Assembly (NCBI RefSeq): GCF_000315425.1
Contig: NZ_JH992924.1
Location: 370,695-434,694 of the forward strand
Direction: 5' to 3'
Source: Massilia timonae CCUG 45783
GTDB lineage: Bacteria; Pseudomonadota; Gammaproteobacteria; Burkholderiales; Burkholderiaceae_D
DNA: 64,000 nucleotides
Below are positions 13,209 through 57,244 of the stretch, one piece after another. The notes below the pieces were generated by a model, which did not search any database, was not told the DNA's origin, and saw nothing but the letters and a program-made list of their open reading frames with translations. The translations under genes and the position numbers were made by a program. Position 1 is the first letter of the stretch; each line of letters begins with the position of its first letter.

Positions 13209-14450
13209 TCAGAACACGAAATCGAGGGCCACGGCGCCCACGGTCACCGGACCGGAGAAGCCAGGCTGGGCGTTGATGAACAGGCCGTTGCCGCTTGGCT
13301 TGATGCGGTCGATCTGGACCTTGAGCGCCACCGAGCTGGCGAAATCCCAGCGCACGCCGATGGTGTCGGTGGTCTGCTCGCCCTGGCCCACGCCCGATAC
13401 CGGGATGCGGCGCACGGCGCCGTCCAGCTGCATCAGGGTCGGGGTGCAGGCCGCGGGATAGCCCGCCGGGCAGGCCGCAGGCACGGTGCTGTTGATGGAC
13501 CCGTCGATCTTCAGTTCAGACCGCGTGTAGTACGGCAAGAACTTGCCGATGCGGTAGCCGCCCATCACGTACCAGGAGGTGGTGTCGTTGATATAGGTCT
13601 CGGTCTTGCGCTTGGCGAACTCGGTCTGCAGCACGAAGTTGTTCCAGTCGGCGGTCAGGCCGATCGAATTGAAGGTGCCCTTGGCATCCTTGGCTTCGAT
13701 CTGGCCGGCCAGGTCGGTCAGCTGTGGCAGGCGATAGCCGGCGCCGGCGGCGCGCAGCGAGCCGACCAGGGTGTTGAGCGAGGCCAGGTCGTCCACCGTG
13801 ATCCTGGTGCGGGCATGGCCGACGCGCAGCGTGAACGGGCCATTCTCGGCGACCACGTTCAGCGCCACGATGTCCTTGCCGCGCACGTGGAAGCCGTCGA
13901 GCGGCGACTTGATGGCGCCGGCCGCCAGCTGCGACGTGATGGTGGTGTTGCCGTAGTCGCGACGCCAGGTGATGTCGGCGCCGTCGACGCTGTTGAACGG
14001 CACTTGCGAATACACTTCCGACGGCGGACGCAGCATGGTGTTGGCGTAGCCGACGTTGCGGTAGTCCGAGATCATAAAGACCGGCAGGCCGACGCGGCCG
14101 ACGCGCACGCTCAGGTCGTCCGAGATGCGGAACTTGGCGAACGCCCAGCTCAGTTCGGCGCCGTAGTGTTCTTCGGCATCCTGGCGCACCAGGCCCTGGG
14201 CAGTCAGCGACAGCCAGTTGTTGACCGCGTAGTCGGCCTGCAAGCCGAGGTTGGAATCGACGCCGGTGCGGAAATTGTCGGCGGCGCCGCTGGCCTGGTT
14301 CGGGCGGCCGAACTGGGCGCGGTCGTCGTCCGACCAGGTGAGGGCGGCGGTGCCGAAACCGCTGATCTTGACGGCGTTATCTTGCGCCTGGGCCATCGCA
14401 GGGACGACCAAGGGGAGCGCCAGCAGGCTGGCGAGAATCTTTTTGTTCAT
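13209..14450 (-). CDS. Outer-membrane porin-like protein
   Basis: 413 residues with a signal peptide (MNKKILASLLALPLVVPAMA) and a beta-barrel profile ending in a C-terminal phenylalanine (VALDFVF), typical of outer-membrane proteins. The middle alternates hydrophobic and polar residues in strands (LSVRVGRVGLPVF, WYVMGGYRIGKFLPYYTRSE). It resembles the porin-like proteins encoded next to short phosphate-binding-like proteins. The ATG at 14450 is chosen because it starts the signal peptide; the longer frame adds 17 unlikely residues. It is first in a three-gene operon and probably admits the ligand used by the next two products. Confidence 0.8.
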   Translation of the reverse strand: MNKKILASLLALPLVVPAMAQAQDNAVKISGFGTAALTWSDDDRAQFGRPNQASGAADNFRTGVDSNLGLQADYAVNNWLSLTAQGLVRQDAEEHYGAELSWAFAKFRISDDLSVRVGRVGLPVFMISDYRNVGYANTMLRPPSEVYSQVPFNSVDGADITWRRDYGNTTITSQLAAGAIKSPLDGFHVRGKDIVALNVVAENGPFTLRVGHARTRITVDDLASLNTLVGSLRAAGAGYRLPQLTDLAGQIEAKDAKGTFNSIGLTADWNNFVLQTEFAKRKTETYINDTTSWYVMGGYRIGKFLPYYTRSELKIDGSINSTVPAACPAGYPAACTPTLMQLDGAVRRIPVSGVGQGEQTTDTIGVRWDFASSVALKVQIDRIKPSGNGLFINAQPGFSGPVTVGAVALDFVF

Positions 14451-46484: not shown

Positions 46485-47021
46485 ATGCTTTCCAACGCGC
46501 TCATCGTCCTGGCCACCATCGCGTTCATGGAAGTGTTTTCCATCGTCGCGCACAAGTACGTGATGCACGGCTTCGGGTGGGGCTGGCACCGCTCGCACCA
46601 CGAGCCGCGCACCGGCTGGTTCGAAAAGAACGACCTGTACGCCGTGGTGTTCGCCGGGGTCGCCATCGCCCTGATCTGGTTCGGCACGCGCGGCTACCAC
46701 CCCCTCGAATGGATCGGCGCCGGCATGACCGCCTACGGCGCCTTGTACTTCATCGCCCACGACGGCCTGGTGCACCAGCGCTGGCCATTCCGCTACGTCC
46801 CCCGGAGCGGCTACCTCAAGCGCCTGTACCAGGCCCACCGCATGCACCATGCGGTGGAAGGTAAAGAGGGCGCCGTGTCCTTCGGCTTCCTGTACGCGCC
46901 GCCGGTCGCCCGGCTTAAACGTCAGCTGCAGGCGCGGCAGGGCCAGGTGCGCCGCCCGCGCGCCCAGGACGCAGCCACAGATCGCGCCGCCGCGGCGCCC
47001 TCGCTGCCCGAGCAGGGCTGA
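46485..47021 (+). CDS. crtZ: Beta-carotene hydroxylase CrtZ
   Basis: 178 residues of the di-iron fatty-acid-hydroxylase-like family. The histidine motifs are HKYVMH (23-28), HRSHH (35-39), HDGLVH and HRMHH. It hydroxylates both rings of beta-carotene to give zeaxanthin. The ATG at 46485 begins the first membrane helix (ALIVLATIAFMEVFSIVA). The hydrophilic C-terminal tail overlaps the end of crtB on the other strand by 107 bases. It is the only plus-strand gene of the pigment cluster, as in the Pantoea cluster. Confidence 0.96.
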   Translation: MLSNALIVLATIAFMEVFSIVAHKYVMHGFGWGWHRSHHEPRTGWFEKNDLYAVVFAGVAIALIWFGTRGYHPLEWIGAGMTAYGALYFIAHDGLVHQRWPFRYVPRSGYLKRLYQAHRMHHAVEGKEGAVSFGFLYAPPVARLKRQLQARQGQVRRPRAQDAATDRAAAAPSLPEQG

Positions 47022-47910
47022 GGCGCGAGGCCAGCGCCTGGGCGCCGCCCAGGGCCAGCAGGCGCAGCTTGGCCGCCTTCGAGGTGCCCACCCGTTCGTC
47101 CCAGGCGTGCGCGCCGCGCCGCTTGACTTCGATCCCGATCTGCCGATAGACATTGCGCGCGGTGGCGATCGCCCAGGCCGAACGCAGGGGCAGGGCGGCG
47201 ATGCCGAGCGTGGCGGACGCGTAATACGGCTCGGCATGGTCGACCAGGCGCGCGGCGACGGTCGCCAGCGCCGCGCGATGGCGCGGCAGGGCCACGTGGT
47301 CGGGCTGTATGCCGGCCTCCAGCAGCCATTCGGACGGCACGTAGCAGCGCCCGATCTTCGCATCGTCGATGATGTCGCGCGCGATGTTCGTCAGCTGGAA
47401 GGCCAGCCCCAGGTCGCAGGCGCGGTCCAGTACCAGCTCGTCGCGGGCGCCCATGATCGAGGCCATCATCAGGCCCACCACGCCGGCCACGTGGTAGCAG
47501 TAGCGCATGGTGTCGTCGATGGTGCGGTAGCGCGCCTCGTTGACGTCCATCGCGAAGCCGGCCAGGTGGTCGAAGGCATAGCGCGGCGCGATCGCGTGGC
47601 CCAGCGCCACTTCCTGGAAGGCGGCGAAGGCCGGGGTGCGCATCGGTTCGCCCGAATAGGCGCGCCGGGTGTCGTCGTACAGGCGGTCGAGCTCGAAATT
47701 GGCGCCATAGGCGCTCGGCGCGGCGGCGGCGAAGCCCAGTTCCTGGCCGTCGACCACGTCGTCGCAATGGCGGCACCAGGCGTACAGCATCAGCACGCTG
47801 CGCCGGGTGGCGGGCGGGAACAGCCTGGCGGCCGCCGCGAAGCTCTTCGACCCGACCGCGATGGTCTGGGTCGCGTGTTCCATCAGCTTGGTGCCGGCGT
47901 AGGCGCTCAT
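46915..47910 (-). CDS. crtB: Phytoene synthase CrtB
   Basis: 331 residues of the squalene/phytoene synthase family; it joins two GGPP molecules to phytoene. The aspartate-rich motifs are YAWCRHCDDVVDG and LTNIARDIIDD, with YHVAGVVGLMMASIMG between them. The ATG at 47910 overlaps the crtI stop by four bases. The last 40 residues (ARAARAPRRRDLWLRPGRAG and beyond) are an arginine/alanine-rich tail not expected in the family, encoded in the overlap with crtZ. It is the last gene of crtEXYIB. Confidence 0.96.
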   Translation of the reverse strand: MSAYAGTKLMEHATQTIAVGSKSFAAAARLFPPATRRSVLMLYAWCRHCDDVVDGQELGFAAAAPSAYGANFELDRLYDDTRRAYSGEPMRTPAFAAFQEVALGHAIAPRYAFDHLAGFAMDVNEARYRTIDDTMRYCYHVAGVVGLMMASIMGARDELVLDRACDLGLAFQLTNIARDIIDDAKIGRCYVPSEWLLEAGIQPDHVALPRHRAALATVAARLVDHAEPYYASATLGIAALPLRSAWAIATARNVYRQIGIEVKRRGAHAWDERVGTSKAAKLRLLALGGAQALASRLSPARAARAPRRRDLWLRPGRAGGAPGPAAPAADV

Positions 47911-49433
47911 GAGTGCACCCCGGCATGCACGCCTTCCAGCATCAGGCCGGCGGTCGCCTTGGCCGAGCCGATCACGCCCGGCACGCCGGCGCCGGGATGG
48001 GTGCCGGCGCCGACCAGGTACAGGTTGGGCAGCTCGGCGTCGCGGTTGTGCGGGCGGAACCAGGCGCTTTGCGTGAGGATCGGCTCCAGCGAGAAGGCCG
48101 AACCCAGGTGGGCGTTGAGTTGGTCGCGGAAATCGTGCGGCGTGAAGATGCGGCTCGTCACCAGCTGGCTGCGCAGGCCCGGCATGTAGCGCCGCTCGAG
48201 ATAGTCGAAGATACGGTCGCGGTAGCGCGGGCCTTCGGTCTCCCAGTCGATCGGCGCGTTGCCCAGGTGCGGCACCGGCGCCAGCACGTAGTGGCTGCCG
48301 CAGCCGGGCGGCGCGAGCGAGGGATCGGTGACGCAGGGCGCGTGCAGGTAGAGCGAGAAGTCGTCGGCCAGTTGCTGGCCGTGGAAGATGTCCTTGATCA
48401 GCTCGCGGTAGCGCGGGCCGAAGCACACCGTGTGGTGCTGCAGCTGCTCGTGGTGTTTGTCCAGGCCGAAGTACAGCACGAACAGCGAATTGCTGAAGCG
48501 TTTCTTCTTGAGCGCCTCGCCGTGGCTGCTGCCGCGGCCATGGTTCTTCAGCAGGTCGGCATAAGTGTGCACCACGTCGGCGTTCGACGCCACGGCGTCG
48601 GCCATGAACCAGCGGCCGTCTTCCAGCCGCACGCCGCTGGCGAGATTGCCGGCGGTCTCGATGCGCGCCACCGATGCGTTCAGTTCCAGCTTGCCGCCCA
48701 TGTCCTCGAACAGCCGCACCAGGCCTTTCACGAGCGCGCCGGTGCCGCCGCGCGGGAACCACACGCCCCAGCGTCGTTCGAGCGCATGAATAAGGGTGTA
48801 GATCGACGAGGTGGCGAACGGGTTGCCGCCCACCAGCAGCGAATGGAAGGAAAACGCCTGGCGCAGCTGCTCGTCCTTCACGAAGCGCGACACCATGCCG
48901 TACACGCTCTTCCACGCCTCCAGCCGCGCCAGCTGCGGGCCGGCCTGGATCATGTCGCGGAAAGAGAGAAACGGCACCGCGCCCAGCTTCAGGTAACCCT
49001 CGTCGAACACCGCCTTCGAATACGCCAAAAAGCGCCGGTAGCCGGCGACGTCTTGCGGGTTGCGCGCATGGATCTGGCGGTCCAGCGCCTCCTGGTCGTT
49101 GGCGTAGTCGAAGTGGCTGCCGTCTTCCCAGCACAGGCGGTAGAAGGGCGTGACCGGCAGCATCTCGACGTAGTCGCCCATCCGCTTGCCGCACAGGGTG
49201 AACAGTTCTTCGATCGCCGACGGATCGGTGATGACGGTCGGGCCGGCGTCGAACACGAAGCCCTGGTCCTCGTAGACGTAGGCGCGGCCGCCCGGCTTGT
49301 CGCGCTGTTCGAGCAGGGTCGTTTGCATGCCGGCGGCCTGCAGGCGGATGGCCAGCGCCAGGCCGCCGAATCCGGCGCCGATCACGACGGCGCGCTTTGG
49401 CTCGAGTCTCGGCTTGAAATTCATCTGGTTCAT
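47907..49433 (-). CDS. crtI: Phytoene desaturase CrtI
   Basis: 508 residues. The N-terminal dinucleotide fold is VVIGAGFGGLALAIRL with LEQRDKPGGRAYVYEDQGF and DAGPTVITDPSAIEEL. The C-terminal family signature is NLYLVGAGTHPGAGVPGVIG. It converts phytoene to lycopene with FAD. The start ATG (complement of 49431-49433) overlaps the crtY stop, and its own stop overlaps crtB, so the genes are translationally coupled. Confidence 0.97.
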   Translation of the reverse strand: MNQMNFKPRLEPKRAVVIGAGFGGLALAIRLQAAGMQTTLLEQRDKPGGRAYVYEDQGFVFDAGPTVITDPSAIEELFTLCGKRMGDYVEMLPVTPFYRLCWEDGSHFDYANDQEALDRQIHARNPQDVAGYRRFLAYSKAVFDEGYLKLGAVPFLSFRDMIQAGPQLARLEAWKSVYGMVSRFVKDEQLRQAFSFHSLLVGGNPFATSSIYTLIHALERRWGVWFPRGGTGALVKGLVRLFEDMGGKLELNASVARIETAGNLASGVRLEDGRWFMADAVASNADVVHTYADLLKNHGRGSSHGEALKKKRFSNSLFVLYFGLDKHHEQLQHHTVCFGPRYRELIKDIFHGQQLADDFSLYLHAPCVTDPSLAPPGCGSHYVLAPVPHLGNAPIDWETEGPRYRDRIFDYLERRYMPGLRSQLVTSRIFTPHDFRDQLNAHLGSAFSLEPILTQSAWFRPHNRDAELPNLYLVGAGTHPGAGVPGVIGSAKATAGLMLEGVHAGVHS

Positions 49434-50614
49434 TCTGCGGTCCTGATCTGATAGGGGTGGGTCTTGCGCACGGCGTGAAAGGCTTCCATGACGGGCACCG
49501 GTGGTTTGCCGGTCAGCAGCCGCGCCTTGTCGCCCACGGTCGGATGGCCGGCATAGAAGCGGGCGATCAAGGGCGCGGGCAGGCCATAGAAACGCTGCAT
49601 CACGCGCCAGCGGTGATCCGGGCTGCCGGCCAAAAACAGCATGCGGTTGAGCATGCGGAAGAAGCGCTGTTCGTCCCAGGCGTGCCGCGCCAGCGTGCGG
49701 ATGGCGGCGAACAGCGTCGGGGCCGACAGGGCTGGCAGCGCGGCAATGCGCTCGGCCAGCCGCACTGCGTGCGGCAGCGAGTAGCCGGTGGTCGGGTGGA
49801 ACAGGCCGGCGCGCAGGCCGACGCTGGGCTGGCCGTGAAGCTCGTCCCAGAAGCGGTCGAAGTCGCCGGCCAGCACGATCGGCAGCGAACCCTGTTCTTC
49901 GCGCAGCATGTCGCGCACGCGCCAGCCGCGCGCCCCCACATAGGCGGCGATGTTGGCGCGCAGCCGCTCCGGGTCCCAGGCGGCGCTGTCGACGTAGTGC
50001 GTGTCCTCGACCAGCACCCGGTCGGGCCCGAAAGGCAGCAGGTAGACGAAGCGGTAGCCGCCTTGCTGGGCCACGCTGGCGTCCATGATCACCGGCGCCG
50101 TCAAGCCATGGGCGGCGTCGAGCCGCAGTTCCTGGCCGAGGAAGGTCTGGTAGCCGAGCGCGAGATGGCTGCTGGGGCGCATGCCGCGGCCGTCGATGAC
50201 GGCGCGCGCGTGCAGGGTTTCGCCATCGGCCAGCCGCACCGTGGTCGGCGTCACCTCGTCGATCCAGACGCCGGTGCGCAGCGCCGCGCCAAGTGCCGGT
50301 GCGACGACCTGGGCCAGGTCGTGCGAGGCGATGCTGGCATAGCCCCCCGCCAGTGTGCGGGCCAGATCGGGAAACACCACGTCGTAGCGCGGCCAGCGGT
50401 GGGTGACCAGCGGCGCGATCCAGCGCAGTTGCGCGGCATCGAGATCGCTGTCGTGGAACGACCAGGTATGGTTGCCGCCCAGGCGCTTGCCCTGTTCGAG
50501 CAGCAGGATGCGCAGTTCGGGGCGCGCGCTGCGCAGGCGCCACGCGGTCAAGCTGTTGGCCAGGCCGCCGCCGGCCAGGATCAGGTCGTAGTCGGGCTTG
50601 CCGCGTTCATCCAT
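49430..50614 (-). CDS. crtY: Lycopene beta-cyclase CrtY
   Basis: 394 residues. DLILAGGGLANSLTAWRL is the N-terminal nucleotide-binding motif; LGGNHTWSFHDSDLD, VIDGRGMRPSSHLALGYQTF and GYSLPHAVRLAERI are conserved in CrtY. It forms the beta-rings of beta-carotene. It overlaps crtX by eight bases at its start and crtI by four at its end. Confidence 0.95.
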   Translation of the reverse strand: MDERGKPDYDLILAGGGLANSLTAWRLRSARPELRILLLEQGKRLGGNHTWSFHDSDLDAAQLRWIAPLVTHRWPRYDVVFPDLARTLAGGYASIASHDLAQVVAPALGAALRTGVWIDEVTPTTVRLADGETLHARAVIDGRGMRPSSHLALGYQTFLGQELRLDAAHGLTAPVIMDASVAQQGGYRFVYLLPFGPDRVLVEDTHYVDSAAWDPERLRANIAAYVGARGWRVRDMLREEQGSLPIVLAGDFDRFWDELHGQPSVGLRAGLFHPTTGYSLPHAVRLAERIAALPALSAPTLFAAIRTLARHAWDEQRFFRMLNRMLFLAGSPDHRWRVMQRFYGLPAPLIARFYAGHPTVGDKARLLTGKPPVPVMEAFHAVRKTHPYQIRTAE

Positions 50615-51929
50615 GGCTGGCCAGGCCTCGGGTCGCGGGTTGCAGGCCGAGCGCGGCCTCGATGACGTCGGCCGCGCGCGGCGCGCCGCCGGCCTGGCGG
50701 ATCTGGTCGGCCAGCGGTTCCATGCGTTGCCGGAAGCCTGGCTCGTCGAGCAGGCGGCGCAGTTTGCGCGACAGTTCGGCCACCGTCGCGAAGCGCGGCG
50801 AGGCGCGCAGGCCGACGCCGGCGTATTCCACGCGGGCGGCGGCGCCCGGATGGTCGAAGGCGATCGGCAGCGCCAGGATCGGCGTGCGGCTGGCGACGGC
50901 TTCCATCACGGTGTTGGCGCCGGCATGCGAGATGACGGCGTCGGCGCGCGCCAGCACGGCCAGCTGGGGCACATAGGTGCGCACGCGGGTGTCGCCGATG
51001 CGTTCGAGCGCGCGCACCTGGGATCGATCCAGGCCGCCGCAGTGGGCGACCAGCAGTTGCGCGTCCTGGCGCGCGCAGGCCTGCGCGATGCGCTTGAACA
51101 GGCCGAAGCGCTGGCTGACCAGGGTGCCGAGCGAGGCGTAGACGAAGGGGCGCGTGTTCGACGCGGGCGGCAGCAACGTGGCAAGTTCGGCAGCCAGTTC
51201 GGCCGGCGTCTGGGCCGGCGCCGCGGCCCCGCTGTGCAGCGGGCCGACGTGATGAAAATGCGGCGGCAGCGCGCGCCGTGGAAAATCGAATCCCGGCACG
51301 ATCTGGCCGACCTGGGCCAGCGGAGACAGGCAGTCGTGCAGTTTTCCGCGCGGCCCCAATCCGAGCTGCCGGGCCGCGGCGGAGATGGCGCGCTCGTGCG
51401 GCCGCATCATCCAGTCGTAGACCATGGTGCTGCCTTCGACGATCTTGAAGGCGCGCTCGCTGTCTTCATACATGAACGGCATGACGGGCAGCGGAATGCC
51501 GGGTTCACGGTTGACCGGCAGCGCGCAGGCGACCGAGACGAACGGCATGCCGGTGCCCTCGGCCACCAGGCCGCCGGCCGCCTCCATCTGGTCGGCGACC
51601 AGGAAGTCGACCTGCAGCCGGCGCAGCGCGGCCGGCAGTTCGCGGCACAGCATCGTGGTGCTGGCCGCCATGTCGAGGATCACGCGGCGCAGGCCCAGCG
51701 GCGAGCCGGGATTGGCCACCCGCGCCAGCATCGCCGGCAGCGAGCCGGCCGGGTGGGTGTCGAGACCGACGGCATGGAAGCCGATGCGTTCGTCCTTCAC
51801 GTAGGCGGCGGCATCCGGCCGGTGCACGAAGGTGACGCGGTGCCCGCGCGCGAGCAGTTCGCGCGCGAGCACCGTCAGCGTATTGAAGTGGCTGTAGAGC
51901 GCCGGGGCCACCACCGCGAAATGCGCCAT
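50607..51929 (-). CDS. crtX: Zeaxanthin glucosyltransferase CrtX
   Basis: 440 residues of glycosyltransferase family 1. The N-terminal acceptor half starts MAHFAVVAPALYSHFNTLTV; the donor half contains FVYASLGTLVSQRFGLFKRI and VISHAGANTVMEAVASRTPI, the UDP-sugar-binding region. It glucosylates zeaxanthin. Its presence between crtE and crtY predicts zeaxanthin mono- or diglucoside as end product. Confidence 0.94.
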   Translation of the reverse strand: MAHFAVVAPALYSHFNTLTVLARELLARGHRVTFVHRPDAAAYVKDERIGFHAVGLDTHPAGSLPAMLARVANPGSPLGLRRVILDMAASTTMLCRELPAALRRLQVDFLVADQMEAAGGLVAEGTGMPFVSVACALPVNREPGIPLPVMPFMYEDSERAFKIVEGSTMVYDWMMRPHERAISAAARQLGLGPRGKLHDCLSPLAQVGQIVPGFDFPRRALPPHFHHVGPLHSGAAAPAQTPAELAAELATLLPPASNTRPFVYASLGTLVSQRFGLFKRIAQACARQDAQLLVAHCGGLDRSQVRALERIGDTRVRTYVPQLAVLARADAVISHAGANTVMEAVASRTPILALPIAFDHPGAAARVEYAGVGLRASPRFATVAELSRKLRRLLDEPGFRQRMEPLADQIRQAGGAPRAADVIEAALGLQPATRGLASHG

Positions 51930-51943
51930 GCGGACCGCCGGCT

Positions 51944-52942
51944 TCAGGAGAGGCGCAGCTCGGCCAGTTGGGCGCCCGCACGCAGCTCGCGCGCCTTGGC
52001 CAGCTCGGGGGCGAAGCGCTTTCCCTTGCCTTCTTTCGCGAACAGGCCGGACACGAAGCGGCGCGTGCGGCCGTGGGCGCCGACGGCGGCGCTGAGGCAG
52101 CGGTCGGCTTCGACCAGGCAGGCCGCCAGGCGGCGCTGCGCTTCGTCGCGGCCCAGCGTGTTGATCAGGGTGGCCTTGCCGACGTCCTTGCCGGTGTCCT
52201 TGCCCGTGACGGCGCTGTCGTTGCCGGCGCCGTCGAGGAAGTCATCCTTGATCTGGAAGGCCTGGCCAGCCGCCAGCGCGAAGGCGCGCAACTGCTGCGC
52301 GACCTGCTCGTCGGCATGGCAGACGATGCAGGCCATGTCGACCGCGACGCCGAGCAGCAAGCCGGTCTTGAGTTCGTTGGTGGTGGCGATCGCCTCGGGC
52401 GAACGCGCGCCGCCGTGCAGGTCTTCGAACTGGCCGCGCACCAGGCCCTGGTCGCCGACCGTCTGCGCCAGCGTCGCGACCAGGCGCGCGCGGGTGGCGG
52501 GGGCGATGTCCTGGGCCTGCGACAGCACGCCGAAGGCGCGGCTGAGCAGGGCCACCGAAGCGAGGATGGCGACGTCTTCGCCATACTGGATGTGGATCGC
52601 GGGCTTGCCGCGCCGCAGGCTGGCGTCGTCCATGCAGGGCAGGTCGTCGAGGATCAGCGAGGCCGCGTGCACGAGCTCGACCGCGCAGGCGACGTCGATC
52701 AGGGCCGGCGAATTGCAGCCGAGGTCGCGCGCGACCAGCATCAGGAGCAGGGGACGCATGCGCTTGCCGGCGCTGAGCGCGGACGAGCGCATGGCCCTGG
52801 TGAGCTGGTCGTGGGGGCTGCCGGAGAGCAGCTGGTCGATGCGTTCGTCCACCGCCCGGCGCAGCGATGCGATGTCATCGAAGGCGGCGTCGTCGCCCGT
52901 TTCCACGCCGATCCCATCGTACCGCCGCGTCGCTGTAGTCAT
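51944..52942 (-). CDS. crtE: Geranylgeranyl diphosphate synthase CrtE
   Basis: 332 residues of the short-chain trans-prenyltransferase family. The first aspartate-rich motif is DDLPCMDD and the second is DDFLDG (in QAFQIKDDFLDG); GKRMRPLLLML and the small residues before the first motif fit a GGPP synthase. It makes the C20 precursor of phytoene. First gene of crtEXYIB. An AGGA lies seven bases before the ATG. The frame ends 14 bases before crtX. Confidence 0.95.
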   Translation of the reverse strand: MTTATRRYDGIGVETGDDAAFDDIASLRRAVDERIDQLLSGSPHDQLTRAMRSSALSAGKRMRPLLLMLVARDLGCNSPALIDVACAVELVHAASLILDDLPCMDDASLRRGKPAIHIQYGEDVAILASVALLSRAFGVLSQAQDIAPATRARLVATLAQTVGDQGLVRGQFEDLHGGARSPEAIATTNELKTGLLLGVAVDMACIVCHADEQVAQQLRAFALAAGQAFQIKDDFLDGAGNDSAVTGKDTGKDVGKATLINTLGRDEAQRRLAACLVEADRCLSAAVGAHGRTRRFVSGLFAKEGKGKRFAPELAKARELRAGAQLAELRLS

Positions 52943-53140: not shown

Positions 53141-54049
53141 TCAGGCCGGCTGTTCTTCGGGAAACAGGATCTTGAGGAAGGCGCGCACCACCGGCGCATC
53201 GTCCTGGGCCGGGTAGCTGATGTACAGGTTGGCCGATGGCGCGTGGGCGTGGATCGGCAGGAAGCGCACGCCCGGCCAGCCGATGCGGCTGGTGGTTTCG
53301 GGCATCAGCGCCACGCCGAGGCCGGCGCCGACCATGGCCAGCAGGGTCTGCGGCTCGGCCGCCTCCTGGAAGATGGTCGGCTGGAACCCGGCGTTCACGC
53401 AGCACTGGAGCAGGTAGCGCGGCTCGGCCGACTGGTCCAGGTGCAGGGACAGCATGGGTTCGCCCGCGATCTCGGGCAGGGCGATGGCGTCGCGCGCGGC
53501 CAGCGGATGGCGGGCATTGACCGCCACGCAGAACTGCTCCCTGAAACAGAGTTCCTGGCGCAGGTTGGCCTGCTTGAGCACGTCCTGCTCGATGCGCGGC
53601 TCGCGCCAGAAGCCGACGTCGATCTGCTTGCTGCGCAGCGCTTCCCACTGGTCGTTCGGGCCCAGCTCGTGGATGGTCCAGCTCACGCGCGGAAACTGGC
53701 TCTGGAACTGCTCCAGCAGGCCGGGGATCGGGCCCCACATCGCCGAGCCGACGATGCCGACCCGTAGCCGTCCGACCTCGCCGCGGTCGATCTGGCGGAT
53801 CGTGTCGATCGTCATGCGCATCTTGCCGAGCAGCTCGGCCGCCTCGACCATCAGCGCGCGGCCGGCCACGGTCAGCTCGAAGCTGCGCGTGGTGCGGGTG
53901 AACAGCTTCACCCCCAGCTCGCTCTCGAGCTTCATGATCTGCTGCGACAGCGGCGGCTGCGAGATGTGCAGGCGCTCGGCGGCGCGGCTGAAGCTTTTTT
54001 CTTCGGCCACCGCCAGGAAGTATTTGAGCTGTTTCAGGTCGATCGACAT
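53141..54049 (-). CDS. LysR-family transcriptional regulator
   Basis: 302 residues. The N-terminal winged helix-turn-helix (LKQLKYFLAVAEEKSFSRAA, then ERLHISQPPLSQQI) and a type 2 periplasmic-binding-like effector domain from about residue 90 make a standard LysR regulator of the CatR/BenM size. It follows psuG closely on the same strand and ends before the crt operon. It may control either; the position gives no decision. Confidence 0.93.
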   Translation of the reverse strand: MSIDLKQLKYFLAVAEEKSFSRAAERLHISQPPLSQQIMKLESELGVKLFTRTTRSFELTVAGRALMVEAAELLGKMRMTIDTIRQIDRGEVGRLRVGIVGSAMWGPIPGLLEQFQSQFPRVSWTIHELGPNDQWEALRSKQIDVGFWREPRIEQDVLKQANLRQELCFREQFCVAVNARHPLAARDAIALPEIAGEPMLSLHLDQSAEPRYLLQCCVNAGFQPTIFQEAAEPQTLLAMVGAGLGVALMPETTSRIGWPGVRFLPIHAHAPSANLYISYPAQDDAPVVRAFLKILFPEEQPA

Positions 54050-54071: not shown

Positions 54072-54989
<918 letters not shown>

Positions 54990-55003: not shown

Positions 55004-56128
55004 TCAGTCGGTAACGAGGTCCTGGACCGGGGCGTCGAACAGCCCCGGCGCCAGTTGCGGGCAGACGGTCTGCGCGCAGGCGATGGTCATGGCGGCGAGC
55101 AGCTGGCCGCGGCGGCAGGCCGTTTCCAGGTCCAGCTCGGGCTGGCCGTTGTACAGGCTCCAGCAGACGGCGGCGCCGAAGGCGTCGCCGGCGCCGGTGA
55201 CGTCGACCACGGCTGGCGCGTCGACAGGCTGGCCTTCGAGCGCCGCGATGCCGGTCGCGGTCGTGAACATGGCGCCTTGCGCGCCGCGCGTGACGATCAC
55301 GTCCCGGACGCCGTCGCGCCGCAGTTCGGCGCAGGCCGCGGCGATGTCGGCAGCGGTCGCCAGCGGGCGGCCGGCGCGGGCCGCCAGCTCGCCCACGTTC
55401 AGGATCAACAGGCGCAGGCCGGTCAGGTCGCGCGGCAGGCGGTCGATCTTCGGTTCCGAGACGGCGACGATCACCATTGGCACACCGTCGCGCCGGCTGC
55501 CCTCCAGCAGCGTGGCGACCGTCTCGCGCGGCAGGTTCAGGTCGGCGACGATCAGGGCGGCGCCGGCGCGCTGCTGTTCGCGGGTGGCGAGGAAATCGGG
55601 CGTGAGCGACTCGTTGATCTCCATGTCGGCCAGCGCCACGCGCATGTCGCCGTCCTCGTCGAGCACCGCGGTATAGGTGCCGCTGGCGGCGCCGTCCACG
55701 CGCAGCGCGCCGCGGGTGTCGATGCCGGCTTCGTCGGCGTAGGAGAGCAGGGCGCGGCCGGACGAATCGCCGCCGACCGCCGTGACCAGCGCCGTGGGGG
55801 CGCCCAGGCGCGCCAGGTTCTCGGCGATGTTGCGCGCGACGCCGCCGAAGGATTCGGTCTGGCGCGCCGGGTTCGAGGTATTCAGGGTCAGCTTGCCGAT
55901 GGTGCGCAGCTTGCGGTCGAGGTTGGCCGCGCCGACGCACAGGATCGGACGATGGTCGGGCAGCACGTAGGCGCGGCCGAGGATGCGGCGCTCGCGCACC
56001 AGGGTGGCGATGTAGTTCGCGACCGCGGAGCGCGACAGGCCGAGATGGCCGGCCAGGTCTTGTTGCGAGATGAAGGGGTTAGAACGGATCAGCTCGTATA
56101 ACTGTTCTTTTTTCGGCATCGCGTTCAA
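55004..56128 (-). CDS. psuK: Pseudouridine kinase (PfkB family) with N-terminal winged helix
   Basis: 374 residues. The first 60 residues (QLYELIRSNPFISQQDLAGH, then LGLSRSAVANYIATL) form a winged helix-turn-helix. A PfkB kinase domain follows, with ILCVGAANLDRKLR, SFGGVARNIAENLARLG and the C-terminal VDVTGAGDAFGAAVCWSLYN. Pseudouridine kinases of the YeiC type share this architecture. It phosphorylates pseudouridine for PsuG, which is encoded immediately downstream. ATG codons at 56128 and 56119 are both possible starts; no clear ribosome-binding site decides. The DNA-binding part suggests it may control its own operon; see the sites upstream. Confidence 0.94.
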   Translation of the reverse strand: MNAMPKKEQLYELIRSNPFISQQDLAGHLGLSRSAVANYIATLVRERRILGRAYVLPDHRPILCVGAANLDRKLRTIGKLTLNTSNPARQTESFGGVARNIAENLARLGAPTALVTAVGGDSSGRALLSYADEAGIDTRGALRVDGAASGTYTAVLDEDGDMRVALADMEINESLTPDFLATREQQRAGAALIVADLNLPRETVATLLEGSRRDGVPMVIVAVSEPKIDRLPRDLTGLRLLILNVGELAARAGRPLATAADIAAACAELRRDGVRDVIVTRGAQGAMFTTATGIAALEGQPVDAPAVVDVTGAGDAFGAAVCWSLYNGQPELDLETACRRGQLLAAMTIACAQTVCPQLAPGLFDAPVQDLVTD

Positions 56129-56148
56129 ATGCGCCGTCAGGCGCCCAG

Positions 56149-56192
56149 GACAATTGTTTTATCATGCTAGACAATTGTTTGGAGCATGTCAA
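56149..56192 (-). promoter_or_regulatory. psuK promoter with two ACAATTGT operator boxes
   Basis: On the minus strand: perfect -35 TTGACA (56187-56192), 17-base spacer, -10 TAGCAT (56164-56169). An 11-base repeat GACAATTGTTT (read on the plus strand) occurs at 56149-56159 and 56170-56180, exactly 21 bases apart; each holds the palindrome ACAATTGT. One box lies inside the spacer and the other at the expected start of transcription. This is the layout of a repressor-controlled promoter. The binder is not known. Confidence 0.7.
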
Positions 56193-56407: not shown

Positions 56408-57244
56408 ATGTCCAGCAATACCCCATTCGAAGCCGCCGACATCATCCGCGCCCGCAAGCCGGGTTTCGCCCCGCGTGTGGCGCTGATCCTCGGTTCCGGA
56501 CTGGGCGTGCTGGCCGAACAGCTGGTCGACGCGGTGTCGATCAGCTATGCCGACCTGCCGGGCTTCCCGATCTCCACCGTGCATGGCCACGCCGGCGAAC
56601 TGGTGCTGGGTACCCTGGCCGGCGTCCCGGTCGCCTGCATGAAGGGCCGCGGCCACTTCTATGAAGGCTACGGTCCGGGCGTGATGACCTCGGCCATCCG
56701 CACGCTCAAGGAAATCGGCTGCGAACTGCTGTTCGTCACCAATGCCGCCGGTTCGCTGCGCGTCGAAGCCGACGCCGGCAGCCTGGTCGCGATCACCGAC
56801 CATATCAACTTCCTGCCGGGCAGCCCGATGGCCGGCCCGAACGACGAGCGCTTCGGCCCGCGCTTCTTCAGCATGTCCAACGCCTATGACGCGGAGATCC
56901 GCGAGCAGGTCAAGCTTGTCGCGGCCGAGAAGGGCATCACCCTGCACGAAGGCGTGTACCTGGCCGCCGCCGGCCCGCACTTCGAGACCGTCGCCGAAAT
57001 CCGCGCCTTCAAGACGCTGGGCGCCGACGTGGTGGGCATGTCGCTGATCCCGGAAGTGATCGCCGCGCGCCACTGCGGCCTGAAGGTCGCCGCCGTCTCG
57101 GCCATCACCAACCTGGCCGAAGGCCTGTCGCCGTTCGCGCTGTCGCACGAGCAGACCCTGAAGTACGCCGCCGTCGCGGCGCAGGACATGGTCAAGCTGA
57201 TCCATGCGTACATCGAGCGCCTGGGTTCGACCCCGCGCGTTTGA
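56408..57244 (+). CDS. xapA: Purine nucleoside phosphorylase, XapA/trimeric type
   Basis: 278 residues. FAPRVALILGSGLGVLAEQL, LPGFPISTVHGHAGELVLG, CMKGRGHFYEGYG, GCELLFVTNAAGSLR and GMSLIPEVIAARHCGLKVAA match the trimeric phosphorylases and are especially close to E. coli xanthosine phosphorylase XapA. It splits inosine, guanosine or xanthosine with phosphate to base and (deoxy)ribose 1-phosphate. It is first of the xapA-deoB-deoC-ALDH-deoA-cdd series and supplies substrates to both DeoB and the xanthine dehydrogenase. The exact substrate range is inferred. Confidence 0.93.
   Translation: MSSNTPFEAADIIRARKPGFAPRVALILGSGLGVLAEQLVDAVSISYADLPGFPISTVHGHAGELVLGTLAGVPVACMKGRGHFYEGYGPGVMTSAIRTLKEIGCELLFVTNAAGSLRVEADAGSLVAITDHINFLPGSPMAGPNDERFGPRFFSMSNAYDAEIREQVKLVAAEKGITLHEGVYLAAAGPHFETVAEIRAFKTLGADVVGMSLIPEVIAARHCGLKVAAVSAITNLAEGLSPFALSHEQTLKYAAVAAQDMVKLIHAYIERLGSTPRV

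Follow-up and report, generated by a model that had tools for sequence, protein, structure and literature searches.

In trigger enzymes such as PutA and BirA, an enzyme and a repressor share a single chain that acts on the genes of its own pathway (PMC6978683, in excerpt). BzdR, which belongs to benzoate degradation, consists of an HTH domain fused to a shikimate-kinase-like domain whose ancestral kinase activity has been lost (PMC3602430, in excerpt). PsuK is the enzyme that starts the recycling of pseudouridine, a modified building block of RNA. In E. coli PsuK, 12 residues that contact pseudouridine have been mapped (excerpt of PMC9247573), and another E. coli protein, YeiI, appears in the excerpted sources among hypothetical transcription factors (PMC6055005) and as an uncharacterised sugar kinase (PMC12506659). 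Among the open-licence papers listed, titles and abstracts yielded no description of a PsuK with an HTH domain, of its operator or of a YeiI target, and no paper on the bacterial regulation of pseudouridine breakdown; a description may already exist in the subscription literature or in a regulon database.

The window analysed here, a stretch of 64,000 nucleotides, contains a psuK gene whose product may well unite both activities. With a probability of about 0.78, we read this PsuK as a trigger enzyme, i.e. a working pseudouridine kinase that would also repress its own operon via winged helices on paired boxes. psuK is the first gene of an operon on the minus strand with the order psuK–psuG–lysR, in which gaps of 14 nt (psuK to psuG) and 22 nt (psuG to the LysR gene) separate the genes (table 1); translation of psuK could alternatively start at TTG 56128. 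Across the psuK promoter, the plus strand between 56408 and 63272 has matches to a nucleoside phosphorylase, a metalloenzyme-superfamily protein, an aldehyde dehydrogenase (two matched stretches) and a pyrimidine nucleoside phosphorylase, and by these matches psuK adjoins a nucleoside-breakdown cluster. The window also holds a carotenoid gene cluster on the minus strand (46915–52942), with lycopene cyclase, UDP-glycosyltransferase-like and polyprenyl synthetase genes found by Pfam and with phytoene desaturase-like and phytoene synthase-like frames recognized by eye.

Table 1. Features of the psuK locus in window coordinates.
Feature	Position	Strand	Details
psuK, pseudouridine kinase with N-terminal winged helix	55004..56119	-	371 aa; ATG 56119, stop 55004
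PsuK winged-helix domain, residues 3-52	55964..56113	-	Pfam HTH_24 and AlphaFold2 model
PsuK PfkB kinase domain, residues 59-351	55067..55945	-	Pfam; has GAGD and the 12 pseudouridine contacts
psuG, pseudouridine-5'-phosphate glycosidase, second gene of operon	54072..54989	-	Pfam Indigoidine_A
LysR-family regulator gene, third gene of operon	53141..54049	-	profile searches
Nucleoside phosphorylase gene, divergent from psuK	56408..57244	+	Pfam PNP_UDP_1
-35 element TTGACA	56187..56192	-	read from sequence
Putative operator box 1, AAACAATTGTC	56170..56180	-	within -35/-10 spacer; kept in relatives
-10-like element TAGCAT, between boxes	56164..56169	-	read from sequence; TAnnnT-type hexamer there in relatives
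Putative operator box 2, AAACAATTGTC	56149..56159	-	at predicted start site; kept in relatives

A winged helix at the N-terminus of PsuK had been claimed from the sequence alone, and both a Pfam match and a structural model bear it out. HTH_24 matches residues 6–43 (E 9e-8), and the PfkB match (E 4.3e-45) includes the GAGD motif. The AlphaFold2 model, built on a 24-row alignment and with a mean pLDDT of 91.8, has helices at residues 3–13, 19–26 and 30–42 plus a wing, with the kinase fold following; the nearest solved structure is that of E. coli PsuK (7vtd), with a TM of 0.93 by target length and 30% identity. In the alignment, all 12 pseudouridine contacts of the E. coli enzyme are present in the window PsuK. 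For eleven of them, the residue is conserved in all of 25 distant HTH rows and in 114 or 115 of 116 family rows (one row being gapped), while Asn14 is conserved in 18 and 106 of these rows, respectively. Because the contacts are kept, catalysis is probably retained, and because all 12 of them are present, a response of PsuK to pseudouridine is plausible. The protein has the layout of YeiI (PRK09954), with an N-terminal HTH and then PfkB, and lies far below the NCBIfam equivalog cut-offs of both YeiI (151.6 versus 561 bits) and PRK09850 (141.8 versus 540 bits), the latter modelling the short E. coli type; the name PsuK is thus given here by predicted function and not as that of a PRK09850 member.

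The sequence-only reading had also described a perfect TTGACA at the psuK promoter and two identical repeats with a step of 21 bp, the first inside the -35/-10 spacer and the second at the start site, and all of these features stand. On the minus strand, a 17-bp spacer separates TTGACA from TAGCAT, as read from sequence, and transcription is predicted to start at approximately 56157. The repeat reads GACAATTGTTT on the plus strand, is exact at both box positions with starts 21 bp apart, and has no other match with at most one mismatch in the window (expected 0.26; at least two in 3 of 100 shuffles). The palindrome ACAATTGT occurs twice in the window (expected 0.17), and the pair ACAATTGTC-N(6-16)-ACAATTGTC is found a single time in the genome of 6,136,500 bases to which the window belongs. 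When this genome was scanned for a second target (spacing 21, two mismatches), none stood out, with 5 places versus 4 for the reversed control; one of the 5 is the psuK pair and one overlaps the psuK promoter.

Paired boxes are a regular feature of psuK promoters in the family. PsuK homologues at E ≤ 1e-60 are held by 116 of the 294 genomes searched, presumably Oxalobacteraceae, and all 116 loci were used. psuG lies 3' of psuK in every one of them and the divergent nucleoside phosphorylase neighbour is found in 100. Paired ACAWWTGT boxes with at most one mismatch per box lie within 250 nt upstream of psuK in 114 of the 116 loci, and in 108 loci there is at most one mismatch over both boxes together; in the control, 100 dinucleotide shuffles averaged 1.18 and never exceeded 5 of 116, and the same search in the last 250 nt of the psuK genes themselves gave 1 of 116. 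One of the two misses has a perfect pair approximately 393 nt upstream, beyond the 250-nt range (L110), and in the other (L014) one box of the pair deviates at two positions, while in nine other loci the pair is 112–249 nt from psuK. The spacing of the boxes is 20 in 91, 21 in 20 and 19 in 3 loci. The distance from the start of TTGAC to box 1 is exactly 14 nt in 105 of the 114 loci (15 nt in one), and a TAnnnT-type hexamer follows box 1. In the window as in nearly all family loci, one box occupies the -35/-10 spacer and the other the start. Each of the eight columns of box 1 holds 0.5–2.0 bits and the columns just outside the promoter 0.02–0.2 bits; for box 2, where the mixed spacing blurs the signal, the columns hold 0.7–1.7 bits.

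Genes for HTH-PsuK also occur far outside this family. A scan of named genomes and plasmid records searched with YeiI as the query served as sources, and such genes are present in Aeromonas, Brevibacillus, Thermoflavimicrobium, Bacillus, Oceanobacillus, Lysinibacillus, Staphylococcus and Listeria as well as in Clostridia, Ilyobacter, rhizobia, a Rhodobacterales species and Deinococcus; genome G483 carries one in another family of the window's class. A class-wide search of 369 genomes with the window PsuK (E ≤ 1e-45) returned only its own genome and G483, which is also the only one with a match among the 56 genomes around it, and YeiI as the query had matches in 4 of the 369. In view of these few matches, the close form of PsuK is rare in that sample.

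For the distant loci, a matrix derived from the family boxes alone was applied to pairs 16–22 bp apart in the 150 nt upstream, with 200 shuffles each (floor 0.005). The set of 25 comprises 13 of 80 named-genome loci, that of G483 (L157) and 11 of 37 plasmid records, 13 of which had been taken up, with near-duplicates and the E. coli and Salmonella copies excluded. Kept outside were L166 and L167 (match starting inside the HTH), L203 (poor alignment), L181 (39 nt upstream), six Oxalobacteraceae loci of the named-genome scan (the family of the training set), L198–L238 (weak matches), L242–L244 (no complete HTH seen) and L239–L241 (repeats of loci already included). At p<0.01, a box pair is present in 18 of the 25 HTH-PsuK loci, which include four Aeromonas and several rhizobia and hence do not represent 25 independent events, versus none of 19 HTH-less relatives, which are mostly from phyla other than those of the HTH set; at p<0.05, these numbers are 22 of 25 and 3 of 19. 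Other proteobacteria and Bacillota are among the 18, and psuG is found in the examined flank of 24 of the 25 HTH loci and of 15 of the 19 controls. A stricter pair count gave 0 of 18 HTH-less loci, one of which (L181) had 39 nt upstream. Even over large distances, the boxes accompany PsuK in its HTH form. The check put forward with the sequence-only reading, a search for paired boxes at the psuK promoters of relatives, has turned out positive within the family as well as beyond it, and the refuting outcome named there, a lack of conservation in orthologues, did not occur.

Individual promoters illustrate the range of this association. The Bacillus sp. FJAT-22090 promoter, TTGACT-N17-TATAAT, has ACAAAAGT both within its spacer and behind the -10, as in the window, and the pair of a Neorhizobium is ACATTTGT-N10-ACAAATGT with TTGACA between. 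Ilyobacter L248, the sole Fusobacteriota member, has a weak pair (p=0.025) with a poor second box. Three distant HTH loci are above p 0.05: Deinococcus L255, with HTH and psuG, has no clear pair (p=0.065), and no pair was found in L177 (p=0.80) or in L176 (p=0.87), the latter having no psuG in the examined flank and possibly not being a PsuK. Likewise, no pair was seen in the Acidimicrobiia loci L166 and L167, which have psuG and match the HTH in part.

How could a kinase operate such an operator? The kinase domains would bring the N-terminal winged helices together, and these would bind the two ACAWWTGT palindromes, whose distance of about two helical turns suggests two dimers bound to the same side of the DNA. 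Located over the -35/-10 spacer and the start site, bound PsuK would block RNA polymerase and thereby keep psuK–psuG expression low. Once pseudouridine released by RNA turnover fills the kinase site, or once the enzyme turns over, this arrangement would change; PsuK would leave the operator and the operon would run until the substrate is gone. PsuK very probably switches off its own gene, and relief of this predicted autorepression by pseudouridine is probable. We infer the identity of the binder as PsuK itself, its oligomeric state, repression over activation, and the effector, which would be pseudouridine or its 5'-phosphate. The autoregulatory kinase envisaged in the sequence-only reading is supported by the conservation of the boxes in the family and at a distance, by their link to the HTH form and by their overlap with the promoter. 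Moreover, the two hallmarks of a trigger enzyme are found together at this locus, i.e. a DNA-binding and an intact catalytic domain in one chain and a conserved putative operator where the genes of its own pathway are transcribed from.

Autoregulation seems the simplest reading of who binds the boxes, and the alternatives differ in what they would have to explain. That the repeats arose in a single promoter by chance appears extremely improbable: two copies in one window alone are weak evidence, with 3 of 100 shuffles having as many near-matches, but 114 of 116 loci with the pair versus 1.18 expected, the fixed geometry and the confirmation outside the family speak against chance. It is also unlikely, if clearly less so, that another transcription factor (either the LysR protein of the operon or an unlinked regulator) binds the boxes, with the winged helix of PsuK binding elsewhere or nowhere. 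The presence of the LysR gene in 96 of the 113 family loci with enough flank would fit this, as would E. coli, where the boxes are present and PsuK is without an HTH. However, of the 17 loci without the LysR gene, 16 have the pair within 250 nt and only L110 has it farther upstream. The LysR gene is thus dispensable for the boxes, and LysR was rejected as their binder. With respect to any other factor, the pair recurs in other phyla together with HTH-PsuK and is absent at p<0.01 in 19 HTH-less relatives, and E. coli does have a nearby HTH-kinase, YeiI.

Slightly less likely again is the possibility that PsuK does bind the boxes but activates the operon, or that its effector is not pseudouridine but, for instance, pseudouridine 5'-phosphate, ATP or a purine signal. 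The divergent gene, which encodes a nucleoside phosphorylase, is compatible with such an effector or with activation. However, the region between -35 and -10 and the start site, where the boxes lie, are positions typical of repression, and the overlap of the boxes with the promoter favours repression; similarly, the mapped pseudouridine contacts kept in the kinase argue against another effector.

E. coli speaks against a strict rule: its PsuK is without an HTH, but paired boxes (GAGCACATGTTT and GAACACATGTTT, 18 bp apart; p=0.005) stand in front of the gene, which, counted with the controls, makes 1 of 20. An HTH on PsuK is therefore no prerequisite for boxes. E. coli K-12 and the STEC411 record, with 5 differences in the 160 nt compared, are too close to be informative, and the E. 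coli regions before rihB, yeiH, yeiL and fruB scored at chance level (p 0.45–0.84). Approximately 5.6 kb from E. coli psuK lies yeiI (L158, 5701–6789), whose product keeps 11 of the 12 pseudouridine contacts in the alignment, with Met114 replaced by Thr and with GADD for GAGD. YeiI may therefore be a poor or dead kinase and perhaps is a kinase turned sensor, and we propose this orphan HTH-kinase as a candidate repressor of E. coli psuK, a prediction made from one promoter. A more general scenario, to which we give slightly less than even odds, is that HTH-PsuK is an old kinase-repressor of several phyla that senses pseudouridine in its own active site and acts via a strongly conserved operator pair, and that E. 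coli and its kin split the jobs, with PsuK retaining catalysis and YeiI, with its GADD motif, becoming a dedicated pseudouridine-sensing repressor of psuK–psuG–psuT. If true, psuK–psuG–psuT would be the first target for the orphan regulator YeiI.

The region upstream of E. coli psuK is reported to be mutated repeatedly during evolution in the mouse gut and also in long-term stationary phase, with an A to C change in the psuK–fruA interval reported for several gut-evolved populations and one in long-term stationary phase (PMC7518454, PMC9509342 and PMC7858067, all in excerpt). The psuK–fruA intergenic region spans 13298–13719 in the E. coli locus L158. With a genome-version shift that we take to be 1978, the A to C change at 2257444 would fall into the psuK -35 and convert TTTACT to TTGACT; other version shifts for this position also land on an A. 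The change may strengthen the E. coli psuK -35, which is only a lead.

Similar box pairs also occur elsewhere in genomes. With a spacing of 20 and one mismatch, matches, counted irrespective of whether they lie at psuK, were found in 49 of the 58 genomes scanned out of the 116 with psuK; with a spacing of 19, the family-wide scan of 288 genomes had 4 matches, two at psuK, and these came from 3 genomes. The genus mates G223 and G251 have 13 and 11 extra ACAWWTGT pairs, respectively, with a spacing of 20 and near unrelated genes, and the 11 of these regions inspected (L259–L269) had no shared function; the L265 pair is inside an envC-like frame, and G223 also has three ACAWWTGT boxes in a row, 19 bp apart. 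A further pair recurs in G204, G098, G056 and G079, with a variant in G193, and in the one locus inspected (L146) lies in an envC-like coding sequence.

Overall, the pathway would be regulated by its own first enzyme, for which a defined putative operator is proposed here. In kind, it would be a trigger enzyme as are PutA and BirA, and what would be new is the enzyme family as well as a putative operator shared between phyla. If true, this would make a nucleoside kinase one of the trigger enzymes, provide a natural pseudouridine sensor and give a hint at the control of psuK in E. coli. Like PutA and BirA as excerpted above, PsuK is a metabolic enzyme with a DNA-binding domain and a predicted repressor in its own pathway; unlike these, it is a PfkB nucleoside kinase, i.e. 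a different enzyme with a different fold, and repression is known there and predicted here. With BzdR, in the excerpted account, it has in common that a DNA-binding domain is joined to a kinase-type ligand domain, whereas PsuK keeps the catalytic motif and is a predicted regulator of its own pathway. E. coli PsuK (YeiC) shares the kinase fold, the 12 pseudouridine contacts and the adjoining psuG, but is without the winged helix. E. coli YeiI (PRK09954), finally, shares the order of HTH and PfkB, but its gene is not in a psuG operon and sits downstream of nfo.
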